Assembly (NCBI GenBank): GCA_001822815.1
Contig: MHSR01000001.1
Span: 1-47,325 of the forward strand
Length of the DNA stretch: 47,325 bases
Source of the DNA: Candidatus Terrybacteria bacterium RIFCSPHIGHO2_01_FULL_43_35
GTDB taxonomy: Bacteria; Patescibacteriota; Minisyncoccia; Terrybacterales; GWB1-40-14
Reading direction: 5' to 3'
Under the pieces are notes generated by a model. It was not told the origin of the DNA, searched no databases, and saw nothing but the letters and a program-made list of their open reading frames with translations. The position numbers and the translations under genes were made by a program. Positions within the stretch are counted from its first letter, which is position 1; the number at the start of each line of letters is the position of its first letter. Positions 1 to 45,716 of the stretch are shown piece by piece.

Positions 1-92
1 GTCGTTGCATCAACGGCCTCGTTTTCATCAAATTTAAGAGTACCGGTCAACCGTTCAAAAAAAGATTTAGGGCTATTTTGTTTATCGGTCAT
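1..92 (-). CDS. N-terminus of an unidentified protein (cut by window edge)
   Basis: On the minus strand an open frame begins with ATG at 92-90 and runs off the window edge. The visible 30 residues start MTDKQNSPKSFFERLTG and are hydrophilic, with no signal peptide or membrane segment. A TATAAC-like box lies just upstream of the ATG on the minus strand, so it may have its own promoter. It follows prsW in the same direction with a gap of about 85 bases. The family is not recognised from so short a piece. Confidence rests on the uninterrupted frame to the edge and the syntenic position. Confidence 0.45.
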   Translation of the reverse strand, partial: MTDKQNSPKSFFERLTGTLKFDENEAVDAT

Positions 93-4452: not shown

Positions 4453-4493
4453 ATCTCCGCGAAGCGGAGATTAAAAATGTCGCCCTTGGCGAC
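4453..4493. repeat. Two short palindromes between tsaD and tRNA-Glu
   Basis: ATCTCCGC-GAA-GCGGAGAT (4453-4471) and GTCGCC-CTT-GGCGAC (4479-4493) lie side by side in an A/T-rich spacer. Neither is followed by a clear T-tract on the plus strand. They sit between the divergent 5' ends of tsaD and tRNA-Glu, so a terminator role is unlikely. They look like small hairpin repeats. Confidence 0.5.
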
Positions 4494-4534: not shown

Positions 4535-4606
4535 GGCCCCGTCGTCTAATGGTTAGGACGTCGCCCCTTCAAGGCGGCAATACGGGTTCGATTCCCGTCG
4601 GGGCTA
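4535..4606 (+). tRNA. tRNA-Glu(TTC), with unusual C33
   Basis: A 72-nt cloverleaf: acceptor GGCCCCG/CGGGGCT (first pair G-U), D arm GTC..GAC, anticodon stem TCGCC/GGCGG, loop CCTTCAA with anticodon TTC, variable CAAT, T arm ACGGG-TTCGATT-CCCGT, discriminator A. The overall sequence closely matches bacterial tRNA-Glu. Position 33 is C rather than the near-universal U. CCA is not encoded. Confidence 0.93.
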
Positions 4607-4650
4607 CATTTGCTTTTTAGATCAATCCATTGTATTATTATTAATGATGA

Positions 4651-43860: not shown

Positions 43861-43946
43861 TATTTCTTATATAATCCGGCCGCGCCTTTTACAAGTTGTT
43901 TAGTATTGGTTAGAGTATACAATACAGCCTGTCTCTAATGCGCCAT

Positions 43947-44013
43947 CGCGGGGTGGAGGACCGGTACCATCGTCCCGATCTCAGTAAGATCGGGAAGGAG
44001 CGGGTTCAATTCC
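43947..44013 (+). pseudogene. Partial, altered copy of tRNA-fMet
   Basis: It begins like the intact tRNA (CGCGGGGTGGAGGACCGGTA), but the D stem is broken (CCAT instead of CCTC). The anticodon arm is replaced by a perfect 9-bp hairpin, TCCCGATCT-CAGTA-AGATCGGGA. It ends in the T arm (CGGGTTCAATTCC), where the GIY-YIG ATG follows. The 3' acceptor strand is missing. AAGGAG in the variable region could serve as a Shine-Dalgarno site about 14 bases before the ATG. Confidence 0.75.
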
Positions 44014-44014
44014 T

Positions 44015-44284
44015 ATGTTTACGGTCTATATTTTATATAGTTTTTCTAAGGACAAATATTATATAGGACAAACCAACAACTTAATTCATAGAATAGAGCG
44101 TCATAATGAAAATAGGGTTCGCGCCACTAAATTTCGTGGCCCTTGGCAATTGTTGTATAGTGAAGAATATGCTACGCGTGGCGAGGCATTGAAGCGCGAG
44201 CGATTTTTGAAAAGCAGAAAAGACAGAAAGTTTATTGAACAAATCATCGCGGGGTGGAGGACCGGTACCTCGGCGGTCTCATAA
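44015..44284 (+). CDS. GIY-YIG endonuclease ending inside tRNA-fMet
   Basis: An 89-aa single-domain nuclease: VYILYS...KYYIGQTNNL (GIY-YIG core), RIERHN with the catalytic Arg, and E in EATRGEALKRER. It belongs to the small UPF0213/URI-type group. Its last 14 residues (IAGWRTGTSAVS) are encoded by the 5' part of tRNA-fMet, and the TAA stop begins with the last base of the anticodon. Thus the gene and the tRNA overlap by 37 bases. The substrate is unknown; the location suggests that the tRNA gene is its insertion site. Confidence 0.88.
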   Translation: MFTVYILYSFSKDKYYIGQTNNLIHRIERHNENRVRATKFRGPWQLLYSEEYATRGEALKRERFLKSRKDRKFIEQIIAGWRTGTSAVS

Positions 44285-44318
44285 GCCGCAGGAGCGGGTT
44301 CAATTCCCGCCCCCGCAA
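44248..44318 (+). tRNA. tRNA-fMet(CAT), initiator
   Basis: A 71-nt cloverleaf: acceptor CGCGGGG/CCCCGCA with the C1-A72 mismatch typical for initiators, D stem GAGG/CCTC with A11-U24, anticodon stem GCGGT/GCCGC, loop CTCATAA (anticodon CAT), T arm GCGGG-TTCAATT-CCCGC, discriminator A. The third G-C pair of the usual GGG/CCC anticodon stem is U-G here. CCA is not encoded. Confidence 0.92.
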
Positions 44319-44352
44319 CACCAATAATTGATAAATCATTAATAATATTTTT

Positions 44353-44910: not shown

Positions 44911-44938
44911 GGACCGTTGGTGTAGCCTGGTTAACACT
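44911..44938 (+). pseudogene. tRNA-like 5' fragment before the LAGLIDADG gene
   Basis: GGACCGT-TG followed by a perfect D arm, GTGT-AGCCTGGTTA-ACAC, with the usual U8 and G18-G19. After that the sequence enters the LAGLIDADG reading frame (TTG start at 44941). No matching 3' part (an ACGGTCC strand or second T arm) is present downstream. Confidence 0.65.
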
Positions 44939-44940
44939 AT

Positions 44941-45627
44941 TTGTACGTGCCTATCTTTAAAAATAAAAACGAAAATTTCTTTAAAAAGTGGACTCCAGAA
45001 ATGGCTTATGTCTTGGGTTATTTTTGTGCAGACGGCAGTATGTTCGTTAACCCTCGCGGTGGGCATTTCACCGCTTTTTATTCAAACGATAGGCAATTAC
45101 TTGAATTTGTGCGAACCGTTCTTGCGGCTGAGCATAAAATCAGCAAGAAGAAGAAAAACGACAGGAGAAAACACACAAGCTATTTTCTCCAATTTGGTAG
45201 TAAGAAGATGTATTATGATTTAATCCGACTGGGTTTAGTTCCTCGTAAGAGTCAACGATTAATTTTACCGCCGGTACCTTCTGTTTATTTTGCGGCATTC
45301 GTTCGGGGTTATTTTGATGGCGATGGAAATATTGTTTACGGTTTTTATCGGCGATCCAATCGTGCAAAGCCAGCTCGTATACTTGCCGTTCGTTTTACAT
45401 GCGGTAGCAAATATTTTCTTGAGGCCTTTGCCAAGCGCATCCACAAAGAAATAGGCATTTCGGGAAGTTTTTTCTTTCAGTCAAGAGCTTGGCGTCTTGG
45501 ATATAGTAATCGACCAGCGTATAAACTTTTGAATTATATGTATGGAGACCATAGGGATAATTTTCCGATACTTCCACGAAAATATAATAAGTTTCTAGAA
45601 GCCAAAAAAGTTTTGGTTAATTTATAA
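44941..45627 (+). CDS. LAGLIDADG homing endonuclease
   Basis: A 228-aa protein with two LAGLIDADG motifs, MAYVLGYFCADGS (about residues 21-33) and FVRGYFDGDGN (about 120-130), the monomeric two-motif type that cuts long asymmetric sites. The conserved segment FFKKWTPEMAYVLG begins before the first ATG, so translation probably starts at TTG 44941 or GTG 44947, 2-8 bases past the tRNA-like fragment. It ends five bases before tRNA-Asp. I see no group I intron core around it, so it looks free-standing. Confidence 0.9.
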   Translation: MYVPIFKNKNENFFKKWTPEMAYVLGYFCADGSMFVNPRGGHFTAFYSNDRQLLEFVRTVLAAEHKISKKKKNDRRKHTSYFLQFGSKKMYYDLIRLGLVPRKSQRLILPPVPSVYFAAFVRGYFDGDGNIVYGFYRRSNRAKPARILAVRFTCGSKYFLEAFAKRIHKEIGISGSFFFQSRAWRLGYSNRPAYKLLNYMYGDHRDNFPILPRKYNKFLEAKKVLVNL

Positions 45628-45632
45628 AATAT

Positions 45633-45707
45633 GGGCCCGTGGACCAGCCTGGAGTGGTCGGCTCCCTGTCACGGAGCAGATCGAGGGTTCAAATCCCTCC
45701 GGGCCCG
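45633..45707 (+). tRNA. tRNA-Asp(GTC)
   Basis: A 75-nt cloverleaf: acceptor GGGCCCG/CGGGCCC, D stem GACC/GGTC, anticodon stem GCTCC/GGAGC, loop CTGTCAC (anticodon GTC), T arm GAGGG-TTCAAAT-CCCTC, discriminator G. It starts five bases after the LAGLIDADG stop. CCA is not encoded. Confidence 0.94.
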
Positions 45708-45716
45708 CATTAAAGA

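Follow-up and report, generated by a model that had tools for sequence, protein, structure and literature searches.

Among the described systems closest to the locus analyzed here, SegB is a free-standing GIY-YIG endonuclease of the phage T4/T6 tRNA cluster that cuts inside tRNA genes, prefers the motif RAWTSGAAC, and drives tandem tRNA-segB amplification (PMC13096335; SegB is also the subject of Brok-Volchanskaya 2008, as cited there). Both systems place a free-standing GIY-YIG gene beside tRNA genes, but SegB is phage-borne and neighbors a tRNA array, whereas the cassettes described here occur in cellular phyla, and the SegB passages of PMC13096335 describe neither a nuclease inside a tRNA gene that it rebuilds nor a palindrome-marked leftover. 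A tblastn comparison of the protein encoded at the locus with a phage collection returned no match. CPR bacteria carry LAGLIDADG insertions in their rRNA genes, where GIY-YIG genes are sparse, and the available sections of PMC11270868 make no mention of tRNA. A full-text literature search, with preprints and most subscription journals outside its scope, found no account of GIY-YIG cassettes lodged in the tRNA genes of cellular organisms, and the accessible portions of PMC8172020, PMC7143001, and PMC12455944 do not deal with GIY-YIG genes carried in tRNA genes.

Group I introns with homing endonucleases likewise place nuclease genes at conserved sites of RNA genes and spare the essential RNA; the introns do so by splicing, whereas the cassette described here duplicates a part of the tRNA. 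Integrative elements of tRNA genes use tyrosine recombinases, and the insert restores the tRNA gene that was entered. That restoration is common to both systems, but the cassette is only about 300 bp long, has no visible integrase, usually restores the 5′ portion of the tRNA, and leaves behind a copy that bears a palindrome. REP palindromes associate with RAYT transposases, and the likeness lies in small palindromes scattered through the genome and in a linked nuclease gene with a palindrome at its side. RAYTs belong to the HUH tyrosine transposases, whereas the protein described here is of the GIY-YIG type and its gene resides in tRNA genes.

Anatomy of the fMet cassette

The window, the whole 47,325-nt stretch of the Candidatus Terrybacteria bacterium RIFCSPHIGHO2_01_FULL_43_35 genome that was analyzed, contains a tRNA-fMet locus best explained as a free-standing, homing-endonuclease-like GIY-YIG cassette that regenerates the tRNA gene it splits and that would move by cutting, and as belonging to a class of very small mobile cassettes that is widespread (a probability of roughly two in three for both statements). 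The anatomy of the locus (Table 1), the recurrence of the arrangement across isotypes and phyla, the existence of empty sites, the tracking of isotype by the nuclease, and the conservation of the palindrome are established at the level of sequence comparison.

Table 1. Features of the fMet cassette and of the neighboring tRNA-Asp locus, in window coordinates
Feature	Position	Strand	Remarks
Broken tRNA-fMet, 5′ piece	43944..43968	+	tRNA positions -3..22; matches 44245-44269, 25 bases identical
Divergent bases in place of the anticodon arm	43969..43995	+	27 bases
Inverted repeat TCCCGATCT-CAGTA-AGATCGGGA	43973-43995	+	the window's counterpart of palindrome H
Broken tRNA-fMet, second piece	43996..44013	+	tRNA positions 43-60, variable region to T arm; 18 bases, identical to the intact copy
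GIY-YIG endonuclease ORF	44015..44284	+	89 aa; UPF0213/SLX1-like
Intact tRNA-fMet (CAT)	44248..44319	+	ARAGORN; Rfam 54.9 bits; the genome's sole intact fMet
Broken tRNA-Asp, 5′ piece	44911..44937	+	27 bases; 12 best of 333 tRNAs all Asp; score 21, next isotype 9
LAGLIDADG_3 endonuclease ORF	44941..45627	+	ends 5 nt before tRNA-Asp
Intact tRNA-Asp	45633..45708	+	D arm differs from the broken Asp piece

The order given in the preliminary description, a broken tRNA-fMet copy followed by the small GIY-YIG ORF and an intact tRNA-fMet, is confirmed in the sequence, as is the overlap of the two genes: the first 37 bases of the intact tRNA double as coding sequence and supply the last ~12 residues of the protein, and the third anticodon base is the first base of the TAA stop at 44282. 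Two flanking segments had been described as identical at both ends; the 18-base segment holds, while the one given as 24 bases really comprises 25 and begins one base earlier. The inverted repeat within the divergent segment would form a strong hairpin (stem 8-9 bp, loop 5 nt), and a single T separates the second broken piece from the ATG. The broken copy is called as a tRNA by neither ARAGORN nor Rfam. Its chain score of 36 exceeds that of every other-isotype tRNA drawn for comparison with this region (up to 25), and because the score beats all controls and the arrangement recurs widely, the arrangement is not a product of chance. The host genome (827 kb, 98% complete) contains no further intact fMet, in agreement with the single-copy status claimed earlier, and its one other fMet match is the broken fragment.

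Three candidate interpretations of the locus were rejected. A group I intron, or a spliced tRNA, is at odds with the finding that Rfam detects no intron family in the window and that the downstream tRNA is complete. An integrase-type element would need an integrase, and there is no integrase-sized ORF between the tRNA copies. A duplicated 5′ leader was likewise discarded, as only about 3 bases of identity extend upstream of the tRNA; across loci the leader is hardly duplicated, with identity at the control level beyond about -3, and so the right boundary has no clear homology arm.

Recurrence and structure of related cassettes

The window protein was searched against 285 genomes of the class and the best-scoring loci were retrieved (L005, where the ORF runs past the contig end, and L169, without a tblastn hit, are omitted). 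A GIY-YIG match at E 1e-8 is present in 205 of the 285. A same-strand tRNA begins between -110 and +130 from the stop in 77 of 120 hits, a fraction that describes the best matches to the window protein, with their bias toward tRNA association, and not GIY-YIG genes at large. These 77 loci span 17 isotypes, and in 37 the tRNA overlaps the ORF. A tRNA lies within 130 nt upstream in 18 of the 120 hits (some loci are counted in both groups), and neither end carries a tRNA in 29 of 119 usable hits; in the window genome itself, four of five GIY-YIG hits lack a tRNA in the flanks examined. Nearly all tRNA calls in the class loci are in the sense orientation (133 versus 4 antisense). Beyond the class, the same tRNA-downstream arrangement is found in 20 of 29 loci of a phylum sample; two loci of the sample, L200 and L205, duplicate class loci. 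A scan of named genomes with the alignment of one clade placed the tRNA downstream in 28 of 70 loci, upstream in 14, and at neither end in 28, with L265, L269, and L272 sitting in the downstream class although they are mirror cases whose palindrome-bearing copy was called by ARAGORN. The named-genome loci with a tRNA are spread over many Patescibacteria lineages, Bacteroidota, Chlorobiota, Omnitrophota, and Desantisbacteria. Small GIY-YIG genes whose 3′ end lies on a tRNA, which the preliminary description had proposed as the object of a search, are common among the class hits, and a gene-tRNA overlap confined to one locus, which would have told against it, is clearly not what is seen across these many tRNAs and several groups.

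Broken copies were sought within 220 nt before the ORF, as a single piece of the downstream tRNA or as two pieces in collinear order. Such a copy beats all tested tRNAs of other isotypes in 54 of the 77 class loci and exceeds all controls in 15 of the 20 phylum-sample loci, so that one broken copy with a regenerated intact tRNA recurs at many tRNAs, as first described for fMet. Typically tRNA(1..p) comes first, then H as one or two GC-rich palindromes, then tRNA(p+1..q), and a few bases further on the ATG; in L024, a clean initiator-tRNA case, positions 1-11 are followed by a palindromic insert of ~40 nt, positions 12-23, and then the ATG. The mirror order, a complete tRNA followed by the ORF and then the copy with H, is common in Bacteroidota; of the named-genome loci tested for it, all 17 show it, as do 7 of 18 in the class. 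In Pedobacter helvus, the mirror copy reads tRNA positions 14-38, TCCGCCAGCTGGCGGA, and 49-75, and in a few of the 17 named-genome mirror loci a separate palindrome is not evident. Insertion in the T arm, proposed from the window alone, does not generalize, as the tRNA position at which the ORF joins the broken copy varies greatly among loci and the arm that holds the palindrome (D, anticodon, or T) depends on the nuclease lineage. As a side observation, ARAGORN accepts the palindrome-bearing broken copies at L265, L269, and L272 as tRNA genes, and tRNA counts may be inflated in genomes with such copies.

H belongs to the cassette. In 47 of the 77 class loci, GC-rich hairpins lie in the 150 nt before the ORF, compared to 3/72 and 0/70 for far flanks. 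The sequence of H is not the same among cassettes. In Asn and Lys cassettes of unrelated hosts it sits at tRNA 13|17 or 14|18, and Asn cassettes with H at 13|17 occur in Doudna-, Uhr-, Sung-, Berkel-, and Saccharibacteria. In 11 of 18 Asn/Lys rows (excluded are five second copies from the same genomes, L238 for a nested palindrome, and L240 for another junction), every pair in the H stem and the flanking D stem is preserved and three of six H pairs have changed on both sides, which 1 of 500 shuffles equaled. L238, a Microgenomates Asn cassette, has one palindrome nested within another. Within isotypes, the tRNA arm that holds H tracks the nuclease tree (21 changes versus a mean of 26.7 and a lowest value of 22 in 200 within-isotype shuffles; 54 rows, five positions set by hand). 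In one clade H lies in the T loop, between GTTC and GAATC. This site, like the tRNA T-loop consensus, is the complement of the SegB motif RAWTSGAAC, and the position of H in this clade hints at SegB-like cleavage inside tRNA genes.

Nuclease, empty sites, and movement

The window ORF belongs to the GIY-YIG superfamily (Pfam PF01541, E 1.6e-15), and Y5, Y16, G18, R26, H30, E62, and K66 are invariant across 18 proteins compared. A profile search against solved structures ranks 1zg2 (E 1e-13) above SLX1 (1e-6) and I-TevI (5e-4), and Foldseek, applied to an AF2 model with a pLDDT of 89.9, returns 1zg2 and Slx1 as best matches; the protein is nearest to UPF0213 and SLX1 and not to I-TevI. A functional role for the tRNA-encoded C-terminus was considered and rejected: the commonest offset of -10 (14/77) sets the stop on tRNA positions 8-10, and AF2 confidence drops to 64 in the last block of the window protein. 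The tail looks incidental, with the frame running on into the tRNA until the first stop, and the odd tails of small GIY-YIG ORFs in these genomes would be explained as translated tRNA.

Occupied and empty alleles at a conserved locus, as expected of homing, are seen in two genomes of one genus. The gene order gatA - 189-aa gene - fMet - 129-aa gene is shared by the occupied G000 and the empty G001, with neighbor proteins that are 70, 67, and 46% identical (gatA, 189-aa, and 129-aa gene products, respectively) and no cassette before fMet in G001, which supplies the empty site that the preliminary description had proposed to look for. In G280 the corresponding gatA - 189-aa - fMet locus is also occupied by a cassette, and in most relatives fMet lacks the GIY-YIG gene. 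Homing would also lead the nuclease lineage to follow the target over the host. A tree was built from 116 proteins over 78 columns, with many of its forks unresolved. On it, tRNA isotype requires 40 changes, where the minimum is 16 and shuffles average 60 and never fall below 55; host family requires 62, where the minimum is 36 and shuffles average 69.1 and never fall below 66 (82 rows). The protein tree is thus a better fit to tRNA isotype than to host family; the Cys cassettes of four host families form one supported clade. It had been suggested that fMet-like fragments without a GIY-YIG gene in relatives would contradict the cassette. Among 25 gene-less fMet loci (L016 and L033, where no fMet was found, are omitted), such a fragment is clear in two (L017 and L032) and weak in L021, so that this contrary observation holds for a small part of the sample. 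In L017 and L032 the intact copy follows closely on the broken one and no ORF separates them, and these loci are probably remnants left after loss of the gene. By eye, another small GIY-YIG-like ORF is present in G001 (L009, about 1662-1916), directly after fMet and before the next tRNA-Met.

Together the anatomy, the recurrence, and the tree fit a mobile nuclease cassette that carries a replacement part, in which the nuclease would be the agent of movement. Points against it are the hits that lack a tRNA neighbor, most of those in the window genome among them, a survey built on best matches to the window protein, the nearness of that protein to UPF0213 and the structure-specific SLX1, and the right boundary with its missing homology arm. 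Such a cassette would consist of a GIY-YIG gene and a duplicate of one tRNA part, inserted into a tRNA gene so that one edge of the insert re-creates the full tRNA and splicing becomes unnecessary. Its general plan would be tRNA(1..p), H, the tRNA continuation to q, the ORF, and the complete tRNA, or the mirror image with the complete tRNA first. The nuclease may cleave a tRNA gene that is still uninterrupted, at a point near p whose arm (D, anticodon, or T) depends on lineage, after which repair templated by a cassette-bearing copy would install the cassette. The broken copy bears H at p, while the rebuilt tRNA keeps the tRNA sequence; since the intact copy thereby keeps the presumed target, some feature must spare it. 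H at p would disable the leftover copy and remove its cut site, and may also shorten the direct repeats able to delete the cassette. Because the target in the window is the sole initiator tRNA gene, precise loss of the cassette would restore the fMet gene and other losses would probably be lethal. The essential single-copy tRNA may protect the cassette from loss, as the preliminary description proposed. Sparing the host through a carried replacement part would amount to neither splicing nor site-specific integration, and resembles synthetic cleave-and-rescue gene drives. If so, selfish nuclease genes of CPR bacteria and Bacteroidota would have in essential tRNA genes a large habitat that has been overlooked.

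Competing explanations and dispersed palindromes

It is very improbable that a tRNA was duplicated in tandem by accident, with a passenger gene caught between the copies and ordinary decay breaking one of them. The gene-less broken copies at L017 and L032 would suit such an origin, but it is contradicted by the recurrence of one nuclease family at 17 isotypes, by the almost uniform sense orientation, and by a conserved palindrome at lineage-specific positions and the empty sites. A domesticated host gene that processes or regulates the adjacent tRNA could account for the overlap, the probable co-transcription with the tRNA, and the conserved catalytic residues; its patchy distribution, with 80 of 285 class genomes lacking a match at E 1e-8 and fMet without the gene in most relatives, makes this explanation highly implausible as well.

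A more serious competitor, though one considered unlikely, is a RAYT/REP-like system in which the GIY-YIG protein recognizes hairpins or cruciforms and spreads palindromes, with the gene resting in tRNA genes for their hairpin arms. The palindrome TCCGCCN(3,4)GGCGGA occurs 1064 times in 112 genomes, compared to 4 occurrences of a control palindrome of equal composition, and genomes with more GIY-YIG hits have more copies of it (rho 0.63, p 1e-13, n = 112; family means, rho 0.63, n = 62), as in REP/RAYT-type systems, but its count per genome does not follow that of LAGLIDADG hits (rho 0.02). GC content does not explain the correlation (partial rho 0.65, n = 49, with GC estimated from short loci). 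The hairpins upstream of the ORF and the compensatory changes that conserve H point in the same direction, as does the relation of the window protein to the structure-specific SLX1; the nearness to UPF0213 and SLX1 leaves room for structure-directed activity on hairpins, and hence for this palindrome reading. Against it, the link is a correlation only, the sequence of H varies among cassettes, none of 20 dispersed-palindrome loci (L207-L226) lies beside a GIY-YIG gene, and outside tRNA genes hairpin loops are favored weakly, with 3 of 200 shuffles giving as high a value. The dispersed 15-16-nt palindromes often occur as tandem pairs, and several are in frame in genes that by eye appear to encode UvrC, leucyl- and arginyl-tRNA synthetase, and SecF, where the tandem form translates as SAxGGSAxGG and the 16-mer as NPPAGG. 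Only tentatively, then, can the nuclease and these palindromes be proposed to make up, in Patescibacteria and Bacteroidota, a mobile system that is new and resembles REP/RAYT. Its nuclease would cut natural hairpin loops, chiefly those in the arms of tRNA genes, and a palindrome would be left at each cut as a scar blocking re-cutting. If true, the nuclease gene would ride along at tRNA genes and rebuild the tRNA, and elsewhere the palindrome alone would stay, often within essential proteins, where it would encode an in-frame Ser-Ala-x-Gly-Gly linker. The self-restoring homing cassette remains the preferred reading, and the cassette would offer a testable cause for the dispersed palindromes in these genomes.

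A parallel with a second nuclease family lies 0.6 kb downstream of the fMet cassette, where a LAGLIDADG_3 ORF stands between a broken Asp piece and the intact tRNA-Asp (Table 1). In the class, 24 of 29 located LAGLIDADG relatives, the window's own included, have a same-strand tRNA (Asp, Cys, Leu, Phe, or Val) at the 3′ end. A broken copy scores above all controls against its own intact tRNA at only 2 of the 24, and with broken copies this rare the parallel rests on the adjacency and on the Asp piece of the window. Elsewhere in the window, two GC-rich hairpins (4455-4493) occur just upstream of tRNA-Glu (4535-4607) without a nuclease gene, and are possibly a remnant.
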